Shown: piece after piece, positions 6,996 through 26,915 of the stretch
Numbering within the stretch: the stretch's first letter is position 1
Layout of the letters: each line of letters begins with the position of its first letter
Assembly (NCBI RefSeq): GCF_907163105.1
Contig: NZ_OU015321.1
Location: forward strand, 1,488,001-1,552,000
Source: Cloacibacterium caeni
Lineage (GTDB): Bacteria; Bacteroidota; Bacteroidia; Flavobacteriales; Weeksellaceae
Direction: 5' to 3'
DNA: 64,000 bases
Made by a program: the position numbers and the translations under genes
Notes under the pieces: model-generated
What the model was told of the DNA's origin: nothing
The model's input: the letters and a program-made list of their open reading frames with translations, nothing else
Database searches by the model: none

Positions 6996-7086
6996 TTTTT
7001 GTCATTCTGAATGCAGCATAGCGGAATGAAGAATCTATTGATAACAGATTCTTCACTCCATTGTATTTCGTTCAGAATGACAAAAT
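6996..7086. repeat. 90-bp imperfect palindrome between GNAT and tatD
   Basis: The arms TTTTTGTCATTCTGAATG (from 6996) and the complementary TTCAGAATGACAAAA end pair over most of 40 bp; the inner part GAATGAAGAATCT/AGATTCTTCACTC closes the stem. The element nearly fills the spacer. It is a dispersed intergenic repeat of MITE or REP type; related fragments occur at 23.9-24.06 kb. Confidence 0.8.
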
Positions 7087-18630: not shown

Positions 18631-19698
18631 TTATAAGAGTGCAAAAATAGTTTTTTCTAGTTCTTGTAAGACTTTTTCTTTGCTAAATTCTGAAAAATCT
18701 ACATCTTTTTTGATAAATAGAAAATCTCCTAGACTTCCTTTTTCTGGAATAATAAAAGAATATTTTGAAGGATAATTTTTTGGGAAAACCGCCAATTTTC
18801 CATATTTAATCGCATCACCAATGTTTCCGCTCATTTTGGTAAAGCCGTAAATTTCTTTTTGACTAAAAAAAGCCGTTTCTTGTTGAATTGGGCACCACAA
18901 AACATCTGCTTTTTGCATAAAATGATCAAAAATATCTTGTAGAACTTTTTCTGTGAAATATTTGATGGAAATATTATCTGGTTTTGATTTCTCAAAATCT
19001 TGAAGCATTTCCAATTCTTTTCCCGATGCTTTCCCAAGGAATATAATTTCGAAAGGAAAATGAAAAATTTTAATTGATTTCAAAACTCTTTCATAATTTC
19101 TTCTTTTCTGCGAAACCGCTCCTGGAATGACAATAGTATAAGTTTCATTTTTAGGTTTTTCTAAAAATTTGGTGTAAAAAATCGGTAAGAATGTATATTT
19201 GTCAGGCTGAGCGGAGTCGAAGCCTCGGTCTAAAACCAAAAGATTTTTTGCTTTTTTGTAAACTTTTGACTTCCTCAATAAACCTTCTTTCAATAACAAT
19301 TTCAAACGATACTGAAAATCTTCTTTGAAAACAGAGCTCAACAAATCAAAGTTTGAAGCTTTCACAAAATTCAAATTATGACAAATAATCGAAGTATTGA
19401 ATTTCTCTGCAATTTTCTCAAAAACATTGAAGTAGCGATGAACTGTTCCGATGATAATCAAATCATAATTTTTAGTTTGAAGTTGTTTGAAAATCGTTTG
19501 ATGGTTTGATTTTATTTTGTTCTCAGTTTCTTGTAAACCAAGCGTTTTCAGAATCTTTTCGCTGAAATAATAATCCACAGAAAATACTTTGGAATCATTC
19601 ATTAATTCCATAAAATTCAGCGCAATTTCAGCGTGAGTATCGAGTTCTATGTATGCGATTTTTTTCAACTTTCTGAATTCATTATTTAAATGTTTCAA
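18631..19698 (-). CDS. Putative GT-B-type glycosyltransferase with in-frame repeat insertion
   Basis: 355 residues. No classical motif is complete, but an N-terminal Rossmann-like strand (KKIAYIELDTHAEIALNFMELM), a central strand TYTIVIPGAVSQKRRNYERVLKSI, FEIIFLGKASGKE and a late DVLWCPIQ...GAIKYGK-like block resemble GT-B enzymes. Start is a TTG at 19698, as no in-frame ATG precedes the conserved first strand; the previous gene ends 6 bp upstream. Residues about 158-166 (GFDSAQPDK) come from a 28-bp repeat also present in the other glycosyltransferase of the cluster. The frame stays open, so the protein probably tolerates it. Confidence 0.7.
   Translation of the reverse strand: MKHLNNEFRKLKKIAYIELDTHAEIALNFMELMNDSKVFSVDYYFSEKILKTLGLQETENKIKSNHQTIFKQLQTKNYDLIIIGTVHRYFNVFEKIAEKFNTSIICHNLNFVKASNFDLLSSVFKEDFQYRLKLLLKEGLLRKSKVYKKAKNLLVLDRGFDSAQPDKYTFLPIFYTKFLEKPKNETYTIVIPGAVSQKRRNYERVLKSIKIFHFPFEIIFLGKASGKELEMLQDFEKSKPDNISIKYFTEKVLQDIFDHFMQKADVLWCPIQQETAFFSQKEIYGFTKMSGNIGDAIKYGKLAVFPKNYPSKYSFIIPEKGSLGDFLFIKKDVDFSEFSKEKVLQELEKTIFALL
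19198..19225 (-). repeat. 28-bp repeat inside a coding gene, copy 1
   Basis: Identical over 28 bp to 21865-21892. On the minus strand it encodes GFDSAQPDK. Its core CTGAGCGGAGTCGAAG is one arm of a palindrome I know from flavobacterial spacers. Confidence 0.85.
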
Positions 19699-19704
19699 AT
19701 GAAT

Positions 19705-21369
19705 CTAATTATTAGGATTTCTAATTGGTTCTGGCACTTCTAATAAACCATTATCAAAAACTTTCTTCCCATCAATAAAAGTAGATACAACATTTACATT
19801 AAGTATAAACTTTTCATCAATTCTCATTAAATCTCTATCTAAAACTATAAAATCCGCATTTTTTCCCACTTCTAAACTTCCTCTTTCTTTTTCCTGAAAT
19901 ACAGATTTTGCCGCCCAAATGGTCATTCCACGTAATGTTTGTTCTCTGGTTAAAGCATTTTCTTTTTGGAAACCATTTTCAGGATAATTCTGCGCATCTT
20001 TTCTTGCTACTGCAGCCAAAAACGTTTTAAAAGGATTGATATCTTCCACAGGAAAATCTGTTCCCAATGCAACCCAACCGTTTTGTTTCAACAAATCTTG
20101 ATAAGCATACGCCGTTTTGATGCGTTCACTTCCCAATCTTTCTTCCGCCCAATACATGTCAGAAGTGGCGTGAGTTGGCTGAACAGATGGAACAATATTA
20201 TATTTTCCAAAATATTGAAAATCAGCAGGGTTTACAATTTGAGCATGTTCAATCCTCCATCTTTTATCGTTTTTACCTTTTAGAACATCACCATAAATTT
20301 TTAGAATTTCTCGGTTGGCAGAATCACCGATGGCATGAGTACACATCTGTAAATTACTCTTAATCAATTTTTTAGATAAATTTTCAAAATGAGATTTTTC
20401 GCTCAATAGAAAACCTCTCCATTTTGGTTTATCATGATAATCACTTAACAAACACGCACCTCTACTTCCCAAAGCGCCGTCTGCATAAACTTTAAAACCG
20501 CCAACAGTGATTTTTCCGTTCGTGTATCGACCTTTTTTAGTCCATTTTTCGTAATAATCAGGATTATCACTTAAAAGTGCAAAAACATTCATTTTCAACA
20601 CTTTTTGCTTCTGAGATTTTTCTAAAAGTGACAAAGTATGTTCAGAAATCCCGCAATCATGAAGTGAAGTTAAACCGAAAGCAAAGCATTCTTTTTGCAA
20701 CTCCCCGAAATATTTGATGGCCAAATCATCTTCAATCTCTGGAATCATTTTTTCTACCAAATCCATGGCATTATCAACTAAAATTCCAGTCAATTTTCCG
20801 TTTTTCTGTTCAATATCTCCTCCTAAAACTTTAGTTTCGGTTGTAATTTTGGCCAAATCCAAAGCTTTTTGATTGGCAATGGCAGCGTGACCATCCACTC
20901 TTTTTAGATAAACCGGACGATTAGGAAACAATTCATCTAATTTTTCTTTGGTTGGATATTCTTTTACCGCCCAATCATTCTGATCCCAACCTCTTCCATA
21001 CAACCAAAATTTAGGAGCTGTTTCGCTGTATTTTTTGATTTTTTCTACAATTTCTTCCCAAGATTTAGTGCCAACCAAATCACTTTTCCAACGATCTGTT
21101 GCATAACCTGTAAAATGGCAATGCGCATCTATAAAACCAGGATAAATAGGCTTTTGTTGAGCATCAATTTTTTGAGTTGCAGTATAATTTTTTAGAATTT
21201 CTTTTCCTCCAACAGCTACAATTTTTCCTTTGGAAATCGCCATTGCTTCTGCGATATCAAAATTTTGATTTACCGTATAAATTTTAGCATTGTAAACAAT
21301 TAAATCTGCTTTTTTTTGCGCGGAAAACAATCCGAAGAATAGTAAAAAGAGTATTTGTAGATTTTTCAT
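19705..21369 (-). CDS. Secreted amidohydrolase (YtcJ-like)
   Basis: 554 residues with a signal peptide (MKNLQILFLLFFGLFSAQ). The amidohydrolase-3 layout is clear: A-D-L-I-V-Y-N-A-K-I-Y-T-V start, metal site PGFIDAHCHF (H83, H85), RVDGHAAIANQKAL, HDCGI, G-F-K-V-Y-A-D-G-A-L-G-S-R-G, THAIGD, RIEHAQIV, and the C-terminal GTDFPVEDINPF. Members hydrolyse amides or cyclic imides; substrate unknown. Its place inside a glycan gene run (gaps of 3 and 6 bp) may only reflect operon packing. Confidence 0.9.
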   Translation of the reverse strand: MKNLQILFLLFFGLFSAQKKADLIVYNAKIYTVNQNFDIAEAMAISKGKIVAVGGKEILKNYTATQKIDAQQKPIYPGFIDAHCHFTGYATDRWKSDLVGTKSWEEIVEKIKKYSETAPKFWLYGRGWDQNDWAVKEYPTKEKLDELFPNRPVYLKRVDGHAAIANQKALDLAKITTETKVLGGDIEQKNGKLTGILVDNAMDLVEKMIPEIEDDLAIKYFGELQKECFAFGLTSLHDCGISEHTLSLLEKSQKQKVLKMNVFALLSDNPDYYEKWTKKGRYTNGKITVGGFKVYADGALGSRGACLLSDYHDKPKWRGFLLSEKSHFENLSKKLIKSNLQMCTHAIGDSANREILKIYGDVLKGKNDKRWRIEHAQIVNPADFQYFGKYNIVPSVQPTHATSDMYWAEERLGSERIKTAYAYQDLLKQNGWVALGTDFPVEDINPFKTFLAAVARKDAQNYPENGFQKENALTREQTLRGMTIWAAKSVFQEKERGSLEVGKNADFIVLDRDLMRIDEKFILNVNVVSTFIDGKKVFDNGLLEVPEPIRNPNN

Positions 21370-21372
21370 ATT

Positions 21373-22284
21373 TTATGATTTCATAATTTTTTTAAACATT
21401 TCACTCAAACGTAAATCTCTGATAAACGCAATTTCTTCTTGGCTTAAAACTCTAGGATTTTTCTGCTTCAAAAATGATTTCATGGTGATAAAAAACTCTG
21501 AAACCGATTTATTTTTCCAAGAAGATTTTGCGGAAGAAATTGCAGCTAATGGAAAATTAAGACCAATATTATAAAAATATTCTCCCAATTTCTGGGCTTT
21601 TTGAGATTTATATTTATAGGCAGTTGGGCGAAGATGTTTCACCCAAAGGTCTTGAAGTGTTACTGTTTCAAATCTGTGCATTTTACACAACATCACATCT
21701 ATATTATCCCAACCGAGAACCGCTCTCAAACCTTTCATTTTCAGAAATAATTCTTTTCGGTAAGACTTTATAGGACCACGAACGTGATTTTTAGAAGACA
21801 GATTTTCGAAAATCCATTCATTTTGGTTGGTAAAATCGTGAAGCTGTAAAGTTGTAAAGTCGTTTTTGTCAGGCTGAGCGGAGTCGAAGCCTTTTTGGAT
21901 ATAAACCAAACCAGAGACCATACCTGCTTTTGGATTTTTTTCGTAAACTTCGTTTATCTTTTCTAAATAATTTTCAGGAAAAATAATATCTGCATCAAAT
22001 TTACAAACCACATCAAAATTTTCTACATTTTCGGATTCTAAACCTTTATTAAAAGTTCTCACGACTTTTGCGCCGGGTTCGTGCTTTGATAATTTTAGAT
22101 TATAGATTCTAAATTTTAAATTATTTTCTAAAAATTTTTCTACAATTTCATGAGTTTTATCGGTAGAACCGTCGTTCACAATGACGCATTTAAAATCCTG
22201 AAACGTCTGATTTTTCAGCGATTCTAAACACGGAAGTATGTTTTCTTCTTCGTTGTGAGCGGGAATTATAATGAGAAACTTCAT
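21373..22284 (-). CDS. Glycosyltransferase family 2 with in-frame repeat insertion
   Basis: 303 residues, GT-A fold: MKFLIIIPAHNEEENILPCLESL, VNDGST at 36-41, DAD metal motif at 97-99, HVRGPIKSYRKELF and LGWDNIDVML in the acceptor half. It adds a sugar from a nucleotide donor in the cytosol. Residues 132-140 (GFDSAQPDK) come from the same 28-bp repeat as in the neighbouring glycosyltransferase-like gene, placed between the nucleotide-sugar half and the acceptor half, where a loop is expected. Overall length remains normal. Confidence 0.9.
   Translation of the reverse strand: MKFLIIIPAHNEEENILPCLESLKNQTFQDFKCVIVNDGSTDKTHEIVEKFLENNLKFRIYNLKLSKHEPGAKVVRTFNKGLESENVENFDVVCKFDADIIFPENYLEKINEVYEKNPKAGMVSGLVYIQKGFDSAQPDKNDFTTLQLHDFTNQNEWIFENLSSKNHVRGPIKSYRKELFLKMKGLRAVLGWDNIDVMLCKMHRFETVTLQDLWVKHLRPTAYKYKSQKAQKLGEYFYNIGLNFPLAAISSAKSSWKNKSVSEFFITMKSFLKQKNPRVLSQEEIAFIRDLRLSEMFKKIMKS
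21865..21892 (-). repeat. 28-bp repeat inside a coding gene, copy 2
   Basis: Perfect copy of 19198-19225, same orientation and same reading phase, again giving GFDSAQPDK. Confidence 0.85.
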
Positions 22285-23889: not shown

Positions 23890-24062
23890 ATCGTTCCTAC
23901 GGAACTACCTTTCAAATTCTACATTTTTCTTACAAACCTTTTGCTTCTACGAAGCAAAAATATTTTCAATTATAAACAAACTCAATAAAATTTTATAATT
24001 TTTAGATTGCTTCGTTCCTCGCAATGACAAGGTAATCTTCATTTTCAATTCTCAACTTTCAA
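23890..24062. repeat. Patch of palindromic repeat fragments between AbiH and polA
   Basis: GTTCC-TAC-GGAAC (23893-23905), TTTTGCTTC-TAC-GAAGCAAAA (23939-23959) and ATTGCTTCGTTCCTCGCAAT (24006-24025) are three hairpins in 140 bp, followed by CAATTCTCAACTTTCAATTCTCAATTCT (short direct repeats). No gene or -7 box seen. Confidence 0.7.
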
Positions 24063-24071
24063 TTCTCAATT

Positions 24072-26915
24072 CTAATGCGCTTCCAACCAATTTTCACCCA
24101 CGCCAACTTCCACCAATAAAGGAACTTCAGTTTTGTAGGCGTTTTCCATATTTTCTTTAATCAGTTTTTTGGCGATTTCTACTTCGTTTTCTGGTGCTTC
24201 AAACACCAATTCGTCATGCACTTGTAAAAGCATTTTGGTTTTCAGATGTTCCTGTTCCAGAACTTCCTGAATTTTAATCATCGCTAATTTGATAATGTCT
24301 GCAGCAGAACCTTGAATCGGAGCATTTACAGCATTTCTTTCGGCGTGACCTTTTACCACAAAATTATTAGAATTGATGTCTTGCAAATGACGTTTTCTGC
24401 CCAAAATCGTTTCTACATATCCTAATTTTCTGGCTTTCGCAACCTGTTCTGCCATAAATTCTTTCAATTTCGGATAGGTTTCGTAATAAGAATCGATGAG
24501 TTGTTTCGCTTCCGTTCGTGAAAGTCCAGTTTGCTCTGCCAAAGCAAACGCACCTTGACCATAAATAATTCCAAAATTCACGGTTTTGGCTTGTGAACGC
24601 TGTGTTTTGGTCACTTCTTCGATTGGGATTTTAAATAATTTTGCCGCAGTAGAAGCGTGAATATCTTCGCCATTTTGGAAGGCTTTTATCATATTTTCTT
24701 CGCCAGAAATTTCTGCAATCAAGCGCAATTCTATCTGAGAATAATCGGCAGAAATAAGTTTGTTTCCTTCATCTGCCACGAAAGCTCCACGAATTTGTTG
24801 ACCACGCAAAGTTCTAATCGGAATGTTCTGTAAATTCGGGTTCAGAGAAGCCAATCTTCCTGTAGCAGCAGTAGTTTGCGAGAAATTGGTATGAACTCTT
24901 TTCGTGTCTTTGTCAATCTGATTCGGCAATGCATCTACATACGTTGATTTCAGTTTTTGGTAGGTTCTGTATTCTAAAATGTATTGTATAATCTCATGTT
25001 TAGAAGCCAATTTCTGCAAAATATCTTCCGAAGTAGCGTATTGACCAGTTTTGGTTTTTTTCGCTTTTGGATCTAGTTTTAATTTTTCAAATAAAATTTC
25101 GCCGAGTTGTTTCGGAGAATTCATGTTAAATTCTTCGCCACAGAGTTCAAAAATTTTGGTTTCAAGGTTTTTCAAGTCGTTTTCTAAATCCTTGCTTTCT
25201 TGAATCAACCAATTTTCGTCTAACGAAATTCCTGCAAATTCCATTTTGGCTAAAACGCGCATTAATGGCATTTCTATATGATAAAACAAATCTTCTACTC
25301 CTTCTTTTTTCAGTTGAGGAGCAAAAATTTCGTACAATTGAAACGTTACATCTGCATCTTCCGCAGCGTAACTCGTTTGTTCTTCGAGTGAAACATCACG
25401 CAATGTTCCTTGGTTCTTGCCTTTTTTGCCAATCAAACTTTCTATAGAAACAGGCTTATAATTGAGGTAAATCTCTGAAAGATAATCCATTCCGTGTCTT
25501 CCATCTGGATTTAGAAGATAATGAGCAATCATCGTGTCAAAAATCGCTCCTTCTACTTCCACACCGTAATGTTTCAGAACTTTATAATCAAATTTAAGAT
25601 TATGAGCTATTTTTAAAATTTCTTTTTTCTCAAAAAACGGACGGAAAATTTCTAACGTTTTCTTCGCTTCTTCTTGGTTTTCAGAAATCGGAATGTAATA
25701 AGCCAGTCCTTTTCTGTAACAGAAACTCATCCCGATGAGTTCAGTTTCCATTTCATTAAGCGAAGTGGTTTCTGTATCAAAACAAACTACTTTTTGTGCC
25801 AAAAGATTTTTGACTAAAATTTTCTGAGCTTTTTCGGTATCAATGTATTGATAAATTTTATCCGTAGTTTCGATATTGAGCGTAGTAGAAGTAGATTGTT
25901 CTAGCGCTTCGAAATCTGCGAAAAGGTCTAATTGTAGAGCATTCTGCTTTCCGCTTTCCGCTTTCTGCGAGACTGGTTTTGAATCACTTTCATTCGCTGA
26001 TTGCTGATTGCTGATTGCTGGTTGCTCATGATGAAACGCTCTGTACAGATTTTCATACAACCTTCTAAATTCTATCTCGTCAAAAATCTCACGAACTTTT
26101 TCGAAATCTGGAATATCTAAATCGTATTGCTCTTGGTGAAATTCAACGGGAACATCACAAATAATCGTTGCCAATTTTTTTGACAAAATCCCTCTTTCTG
26201 CAGAGTTTTCTACTTTTTCTTTCAGTTTTCCTTTCAGTTGAGAAGTGTTTGCCAAAAGATTTTCTATACTGCCAAATTCTTTCAAAAATTTCATAGCAGT
26301 TTTTTCGCCCACTCCTTCCAATCCTGGAATATTATCCACAGCATCTCCCATCATTGCCAGAAAATCGATGACTTGTTTTGGGTCTTCAATTTCGTATTTG
26401 GCTTTTACTTCTTCCACGCCTAAAATTTCTACATCGCCGCCTTTTAAACCCGGTTTGTAGATTTTAATTCTGTCGGTAACCAACTGCGCAAAATCCTTAT
26501 CTGGCGTTACCATAAACGTGGTATAATTTTCTTTTTCGGCTTTATTGGCAATGGTTCCTATCACATCATCTGCTTCATAACCTTCTACTCCCAAAATCGG
26601 AATATGCATGGCTTCTAAAATCCTGTGAATATAGGGAACTGCGTTTTTAATCGCTTCTGGAGTGTCACTTCTGTTCGCTTTGTATTCTGTAAAATCAGCG
26701 GTTCTCACATTTTCTTTTCCTACATCAAAAACCACAGCCAAATGCGTAGGTTTTTCTCTTCTAATCAGCTCAATTAATGAATTGGTAAATCCAAAAATAG
26801 CAGACGTATCAAAACCTTTAGAAGTTAATCTAGGATTTCTAATCAGAGCGTAATAACCGCGAAAAATCATCGCATAAGCATCGATGAGAAAAAGTCTTTT
26901 GTCAGAATTTGTCAT
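24072..26915 (-). CDS. polA: DNA polymerase I
   Basis: 947 residues; repairs DNA and removes Okazaki primers. Three domains: 5' nuclease (about 1-290, LFLIDAYAMIFRGYYA, EGYEADDVIGT, GDAVDNIPGLEGVGEKTA), 3'-5' exonuclease with FDTETTSL near 377 and an intact D-x-E, and family A polymerase with SADYSQIELR near 718, R-S-Q-A-K-T-V-N-F-G-I-I-Y-G O-helix and QVHDELVFE near 897. Between the first two domains, residues about 296-325 are encoded by low-complexity repeat (AISNQQSAN, KAESGKQNAL) also found in spacers around adk. The ATG follows its -7 box by only 5 bp. Confidence 0.97.
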   Translation of the reverse strand: MTNSDKRLFLIDAYAMIFRGYYALIRNPRLTSKGFDTSAIFGFTNSLIELIRREKPTHLAVVFDVGKENVRTADFTEYKANRSDTPEAIKNAVPYIHRILEAMHIPILGVEGYEADDVIGTIANKAEKENYTTFMVTPDKDFAQLVTDRIKIYKPGLKGGDVEILGVEEVKAKYEIEDPKQVIDFLAMMGDAVDNIPGLEGVGEKTAMKFLKEFGSIENLLANTSQLKGKLKEKVENSAERGILSKKLATIICDVPVEFHQEQYDLDIPDFEKVREIFDEIEFRRLYENLYRAFHHEQPAISNQQSANESDSKPVSQKAESGKQNALQLDLFADFEALEQSTSTTLNIETTDKIYQYIDTEKAQKILVKNLLAQKVVCFDTETTSLNEMETELIGMSFCYRKGLAYYIPISENQEEAKKTLEIFRPFFEKKEILKIAHNLKFDYKVLKHYGVEVEGAIFDTMIAHYLLNPDGRHGMDYLSEIYLNYKPVSIESLIGKKGKNQGTLRDVSLEEQTSYAAEDADVTFQLYEIFAPQLKKEGVEDLFYHIEMPLMRVLAKMEFAGISLDENWLIQESKDLENDLKNLETKIFELCGEEFNMNSPKQLGEILFEKLKLDPKAKKTKTGQYATSEDILQKLASKHEIIQYILEYRTYQKLKSTYVDALPNQIDKDTKRVHTNFSQTTAATGRLASLNPNLQNIPIRTLRGQQIRGAFVADEGNKLISADYSQIELRLIAEISGEENMIKAFQNGEDIHASTAAKLFKIPIEEVTKTQRSQAKTVNFGIIYGQGAFALAEQTGLSRTEAKQLIDSYYETYPKLKEFMAEQVAKARKLGYVETILGRKRHLQDINSNNFVVKGHAERNAVNAPIQGSAADIIKLAMIKIQEVLEQEHLKTKMLLQVHDELVFEAPENEVEIAKKLIKENMENAYKTEVPLLVEVGVGENWLEAH
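25942..26029. repeat. Dispersed repeat inside polA, translated in frame
   Basis: CTGCTTTCCGCTTTCCGC... and CGCTGATTGCTGATTGCTGATTGCTGG share 16-bp words with the spacer at 15478-15516. It encodes the linker between the two nuclease domains. Confidence 0.8.

Follow-up and report, generated by a model that had tools for sequence, protein, structure and literature searches.

A short tagged hairpin repeat lying in frame in two glycan genes of Cloacibacterium caeni, and the host bases at its sites across the genus

Repeat copies and their host genes

The stretch analyzed here, called the window below, comprises 64 kb of the Cloacibacterium caeni genome and holds two copies of a 28-bp repeat, one in a gene for a family-2 glycosyltransferase (GT2) and the other in a gene for a protein of 355 residues (Table 1). 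The copies are identical at 28/28 bp (TTTGTCAGGCTGAGCGGAGTCGAAGCCT) and lie in the same orientation, and their start-to-start distance of 2667 bp is divisible by three, so that they share the codon phase and add the peptide GFDSAQPDK to both products. All of this had been claimed in the first-pass annotation, made from the sequence alone, and direct comparison bears it out. The peptide had also been placed correctly in GT2, but at residues 158-166 instead of 159-167 in the 355-residue protein. The label "GT-B-like" given to the latter protein could not be confirmed, as Pfam yielded no match and its structural model is of low confidence (the AlphaFold2 models of both window proteins are poor, with mean pLDDT, the predicted local distance difference test score, of 45.7 and 57.2). 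The closest named relatives of the 355-residue protein are those of Cloacibacterium normanense (83% identity) and C. rupense (80%).

No third copy was found in the window with up to 2 mismatches to the 16-base core or up to 3 mismatches to a 25-base form of the repeat, and the shuffled window sequence gave 0 matches to either. The possibility that the two genes are recent paralogues that inherited the peptide, raised along with the original claim, was rejected: Glycos_transf_2 was detected in one and no Pfam domain in the other, and we saw no sign of paralogy, albeit no direct pairwise comparison was made.

Table 1. Positions of the repeat copies, the codons they contribute and the surrounding genes in the window
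Feature	Position	Strand	Remarks
Repeat copy 1	19198..19225	+	TGTC tag 19200-19203
Outer stem of copy 1	AGGCT 19204-19208 / AGCCT 19221-19225		core CTGAGCGGAGTCGAAG 19207-19222
Repeat copy 2, same letters as copy 1	21865..21892	+	tag 21867-21870
Outer stem of copy 2	21871-21875 / 21888-21892		core 21874-21889
GFDSAQPDK codons, 355-residue protein	19198..19224	-	residues 159-167
GFDSAQPDK codons, GT2 protein	21865..21891	-	residues 132-140
Host gene, 355 residues, TTG start	18631..19698	-	glycosyltransferase-like according to the first-pass annotation; Pfam: none
Host gene, 303 residues, family-2 glycosyltransferase	21373..22284	-	Pfam Glycos_transf_2, E 6.3e-24
Open reading frame (ORF) of 554 residues separating both hosts, amidohydrolase-like by eye	19705..21369	-	no core copy

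A hairpin family with a covarying stem

The core matched the 2.72-Mb genome at 32 positions (up to 1 mismatch; 17 forward and 15 reverse), while the reversed control gave 0 matches, which rules out a chance origin of the repeat. The 32 copies constitute a family of hairpins with a covarying stem. The first variable stem pair is of the Watson-Crick type in 31/32 copies and occurs as all four pair types (shuffle mean 8.6, maximum 19), the second is of this type in 28 copies and G-T in three more (mean 11.3, maximum 20), and the third in 22 (mean 14.1, maximum 21); beyond the third pair, the 32 copies showed no clear excess of pairing over the shuffles. The repeat had been taken for one arm of a palindrome, but it is instead a whole small hairpin. 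The window copy, which represents the subtype with the stem GG/CC, folds into 5 bp, a bulge, 2 bp and a 4-base loop.

The stem is preceded by GTC in 18 of the 32 copies, as TGTC in 16 (including both window copies) and as CGTC in two, and A-T is the first stem pair in 14 of these tagged copies. The tag GTAG was found in 0/32. Four neighboring pairs, two of them inverted, lie less than 500 bp apart. The genus also has variants that differ in the loop, as well as a longer form of 44 nt, and the pattern GTCANNCTGAGCGNAGTCGAAG was present in 41 of 120 genomes of the family, representing 11 of 33 genera (controls 0). We regard the 28-bp repeat, with a probability of about 0.8, as a subtype of a small hairpin of the repetitive extragenic palindrome (REP) type, which bears a [C/T]GTC tag and has multiplied in a Cloacibacterium-like genome.

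Related hairpins were seen elsewhere. The window contains an inverted pair of TGTC-tagged hairpins, TGTCATTCTGAA...GAAGAAT, at 7000 (+) and 7082 (-), and another, TGTCATTGCGAGGAACGAAGCAAT, at 24029 (-). Related hairpins, having GC/GC stems or an ACAGG loop, are clustered at G000:C1:982234-985158 and 1262358-1265148 (G000 being the genome of the window).

Copies inside genes

Fourteen of the 32 copies fall within clear genes. Besides the two window genes, the hosts encode an alpha-2-macroglobulin-like protein (A2M, three copies), a copper ATPase (CopA), a MenF-like isochorismate synthase, an ABC-F ATPase, a protein resembling glycoside hydrolase family 3 (GH3-like), NadD, a rhodanese, MurE, a phosphoglycerate-dehydrogenase-like protein (PGDH) and a MenE-like ligase. 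This count excludes the copies at 143267, 516353, 872443 and 1310423, which either sit right where an ORF begins or belong to an ORF of doubtful standing, as well as ORFs shorter than ~120 residues and overlapping ORFs on the opposite strand. A Pfam scan of nine host proteins returned a match for eight, and MurE and MenF were named from matches to solved structures; the ABC-F ATPase, and the MenE-like ligase past its AMP-binding match, are presumably what we call them by our own reading. As most of the gene-borne copies are in other genes, the repeat is not confined to glycan genes.

The shared codon phase of the window copies had been pointed out in the first-pass annotation. The tagged element is free of stops in four of the six frames (the other two have a stop), and the gene-borne copies use all four open frames, giving FDSAQ in four, ST[P/S]LS in five, LS.[V/A]E in three and ERSR in two; nine run against the gene and five along it. 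FDSAQ is encoded in the copper ATPase and the GH3-like protein as well. Thus, a common phase is nothing special, and we rejected it as a sign of selection on the peptide. In alignments with the best-matching solved homologue, NadD and CopA show a gap in the homologue around the element; the MurE alignment begins past the element site, and the matches of GT2 and the GH3-like protein are distant.

Presence and absence across the genus

Seven genomes of the genus, G000 to G006, were compared, and the orthologues were aligned at nine of the 14 gene sites (three in A2M, and one each in CopA, PGDH, NadD, GT2, the 355-residue protein and MurE). At 9/9 sites the element is absent in at least one species, which has a shorter open frame there. 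The copies range from older to younger: that in PGDH is common to five species (G000, G001, G002, G005 and G006), two in A2M occur in G000, G001, G002 and G005, G000 and G001 share the third A2M copy and G000 and G002 that in NadD, and that in MurE is private to G000, the relatives being 93 to 98% identical in protein. NadD and MurE have a single match each in G000 (E 1e-20 and 1e-100, respectively). In the five-gene tree the species are close to one another, and the inner branches that join the first of them have supports of 0.57 and 0.93. The A2M gene of G004 is split over two contigs; each of its sites was judged on the covering piece, and the first piece alone entered the tree.

Homologues all carrying the peptide, as expected of a conserved part of the fold, were not what we found, since some close relatives lack it. 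The 355-residue protein is without GFDSAQPDK in G001, G003, G004 and G006, while the GT2 site has no hairpin in G003 and G006 and hairpins of other types in G001 and G004. Neither peptide was seen in the outgroup loci of Kaistella and Chryseobacterium (L076-L079). G001, G004 and G005 have a different insert at the CopA site. There are also in-frame sites occupied in relatives only: GT2 has one at codon ~55 in G001, G002, G005 and G006, and in G001 alone there is one at a different place in the gene for the 355-residue protein.

Two side observations concern the latter gene. In G001 and G004 (L065-L068) it carries, at another site, an in-frame insert of ~25 residues, ESELRRSETFVEN.LSE.GSSVGTTQ, with palindrome-like DNA, and a broken additional fragment of it lies near the intact gene at G005:C11:162383-162728 and G001:C1:375054-375393.

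Net gain at the element sites and paired change of the window copies

A clean gap had been predicted in homologues without the element. Instead, the element has taken the place of host bases. Relative to the empty orthologues, the net gain is +9 nt in the gene for the 355-residue protein and in MurE, +12 nt in NadD, +15 nt in PGDH, +15 nt in GT2 (against the hairpin-free G003), +18 nt in CopA, and +18, +18 and +21 nt in A2M; all the spans were recounted except those of CopA in G003 and NadD in G004, which were taken from the original alignment. With the hairpin reckoned as the core plus two stem pairs, i.e., 20 bp, the net gain (range 9-21 nt) falls short of the hairpin at 8/9 sites, and host bases must therefore be gone. 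In the 355-residue protein the element takes the place of ~6 other residues in the four element-free relatives of the genus. Host loss is also seen for the young MurE copy.

The two window sites differ jointly among species. Both genes have GFDSAQPDK in G000 and G002, whereas in G005 and at the C. normanense locus L073 a longer hairpin, encoding GF[V/E]NFVRKPLVYAQPDK, is found at both. The two long copies differ from each other at one base, and in G005 TAAACCTTTAGTTTAT occurs at the two glycan-gene sites alone, which make up 2/5 of the long-form matches (up to 3 mismatches). These observations suggest that copying between neighboring elements explains the paired variant of G005.

Relation to known repeats

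Two kinds of tagged REPs, GTAG and CGTC, were described by Di Nocera, De Gregorio and Rocco (2013; PMC3733652). In their account, CGTC repeats occur in Bacteroidetes among other phyla (G. forsetii being CGTC-positive), RPE-6 and RPE-4 of R. conorii are equated with CGTC-1 and CGTC-4, respectively, and intragenic REPs are reported in several species. For the CGTC class they also give an unpaired tail of three bases, for the most part CCA. The discussion there weighs a neutral reading and speculates that insertions in DNA repair genes altered protein activity, and its authors note that members with short or bulged stems may have been missed by their search. The first-pass annotation knew of no description in this phylum; palindromes with a CGTC or TGTC tag are already reported there. 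Among the literature matches listed, none was seen to describe REPs lying in frame in genes of Bacteroidota, as far as their main texts go (figures and supplements being outside).

The present element resembles the CGTC REPs, as portrayed in the same text, in having CGTC or TGTC at one end, A-T as the first stem pair in most tagged copies, complementary stem variants and some intragenic copies, in belonging to a class present in Bacteroidetes, and in not flanking tyrosine transposase genes (0/4 loci with a Y1_Tnp match have a core copy within flanks of ~1.5 kb). On the other hand, CGTC REPs have a stem of 8-9 bp and a loop of 4-5 bases, in contrast to a 5-bp outer stem with an interrupted inner part here; their second pair is A-T, which varies here; head-to-head dimers predominate among them, whereas we observed mostly single copies; and they are tagged, unlike 14 of our 32 copies. 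As the tag is kept but the long stem and the dimers are not, we regard the element as a variant of the CGTC class rather than a member. The GTAG REPs, which go with REP-associated tyrosine transposases (RAYTs) and REP doublets forming hairpins (REPINs), are likewise short tagged hairpins with many copies and stem subtypes, but differ in their tag and in flanking RAYT genes. Thousands of REP-like sequences are reported for two Flavobacterium genomes in PMC12306157.

Rickettsia palindromic elements lie in frame within genes, including that of a guanylate kinase that is still active (PMC10969869, PMC2229807). The first-pass annotation had drawn this parallel, which holds in that unrelated genes contain, in frame, a palindromic repeat that some close relatives lack, but not in the expected clean gap. 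Both elements reside in conserved, seemingly functional genes. According to the same sources, the Rickettsia elements are of 105-146 or ~150 bp, while the present one is of ~25 bp and from a different phylum. The kind of element is thus known; what is new is the pattern of replacement, read from empty sites that fit on a tree, and the joint turnover of the copies in two unrelated genes.

Interpretation and alternatives

These data are best read as a REP element whose in-frame copies are tolerated, like the palindromic elements of Rickettsia. A selfish hairpin, copied by some process, would land anywhere, in spacers and genes alike, and within genes only in-frame events that leave the fold intact would survive, each of them contributing a short peptide read in the one of the four open frames that it happens to use. 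Such a peptide is probably translated and near neutral. The host loss together with the paired change favors an annealing-type, templated exchange of short single strands over clean transposition, and we tentatively entertain, at somewhat less than even odds, that the element spreads in this way and not by cut-and-paste. Neighbors would then rewrite each other, which would explain both the host loss and the same variant in both glycan genes within a species. A bolder version, which we hold to be unlikely, is that hairpins overwrite rather than insert, a folded short single strand replacing a patch of the host in genes and spacers; nearby copies would overwrite each other, and two unrelated genes would come to share an in-frame peptide and to change in concert.

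Several points weigh against this reading or parts of it. The [CT]GTC tag is absent from 14/32 copies, six of which have CGGT there, and the MenF-like protein has no gap at the element relative to its best solved homologue. The genus comparison did not include the MenF-like, ABC-F, GH3-like, rhodanese and MenE-like sites (5/14). At the A2M site with +21 nt, host loss depends on counting the tag, and at the other sites an insertion trimmed afterwards by small deletions could look the same. In the gene for the 355-residue protein, three of the four outgroup loci (L076, L077 and L079) are longer without the element (45 versus 42 nt), indicating that the loop length varies regardless. As for the paired change, a TAAAC/GTTTA stem with a different loop occurs once in G000 and once in G001, and although copies at most 5 kb apart had the same stem letters in 3/7 pairs (expected 0.61, P 0.019), this test comprised seven pairs only and omitted the cluster at 982-985 kb. 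The glycan locus is a mosaic among species, and an exchange of alleles could therefore mimic the paired turnover. At the protein level the peptide is a prediction, and the annealing route is a hypothesis.

The mosaicism is also the ground for attributing the parallel difference in G005 to horizontal exchange of the locus, and not to copying from element to element. We consider this somewhat unlikely, since G000, G002 and G005 agree in the sequence flanking either site and differ in the body of the element; besides, an exchange of alleles by itself leaves the twin elements within each allele unexplained. Quite unlikely in our view is the clean insertion of the same element by an IS200-type (RAYT-like) transposase, followed by small deletions that restored the frame. 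The genome does contain four Y1_Tnp matches, three of them in ORFs of 154 to 175 residues, and GTAG-tagged REPs are tied to such enzymes in PMC3733652. Nevertheless, a core copy adjoining a Y1_Tnp gene was sought in vain at the four loci (up to 3 mismatches, flanks of ~1.5 kb), even the private MurE copy shows host loss, and in the same paper no transposase was found adjoining CGTC repeats. A chance-like GTCAGTCTGA is present in the gene adjoining one Y1_Tnp locus.

Both genes keep the peptide in G000 and G002 and differ jointly in G005, as they might if GFDSAQPDK were under selection for a job in both glycan enzymes, e.g., as a docking tag. We give hardly any credence to this explanation in light of the four relatives with a peptide-free 355-residue protein, the hairpin-free or otherwise occupied GT2 sites, and the recurrence of FDSAQ in the copper ATPase and GH3-like protein together with peptides from other frames elsewhere. 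A role at the level of DNA or RNA, either as hairpins in mRNA or through recombination between the repeats 2667 bp apart, which would fuse both genes in frame, would accord with the strong covariation of the stem and the shared orientation and phase of the window copies. It is nonetheless very improbable, as the gene-borne copies lie in both orientations and in unrelated genes, and all seven genomes keep both window genes.

If the reading of a REP hairpin tolerated in frame is correct, palindromes of the Rickettsia type within working genes are extended to a genus in which the events can be fitted on a tree against empty sites. Such sites speak against simple insertion, and the movement of REPs without a dedicated transposase becomes directly testable. 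Where unrelated flavobacterial proteins have the same short peptide, it may stem from a DNA repeat and not from a shared function, and overwriting by REP hairpins, if true, would steadily supply templated in-frame changes to the proteins of Bacteroidota.

A second class of intragenic repeat

Apart from the hairpins, in-frame tandem repeats of the AGCAATC type were noticed in polA (24072-26915) at window positions 25905-26024 on the minus strand, and, as in polA, at codon ~123 of CopA in L080. These repeats encode QSAISNQQSA or PAISNQQSA and represent a second class of intragenic repeat.

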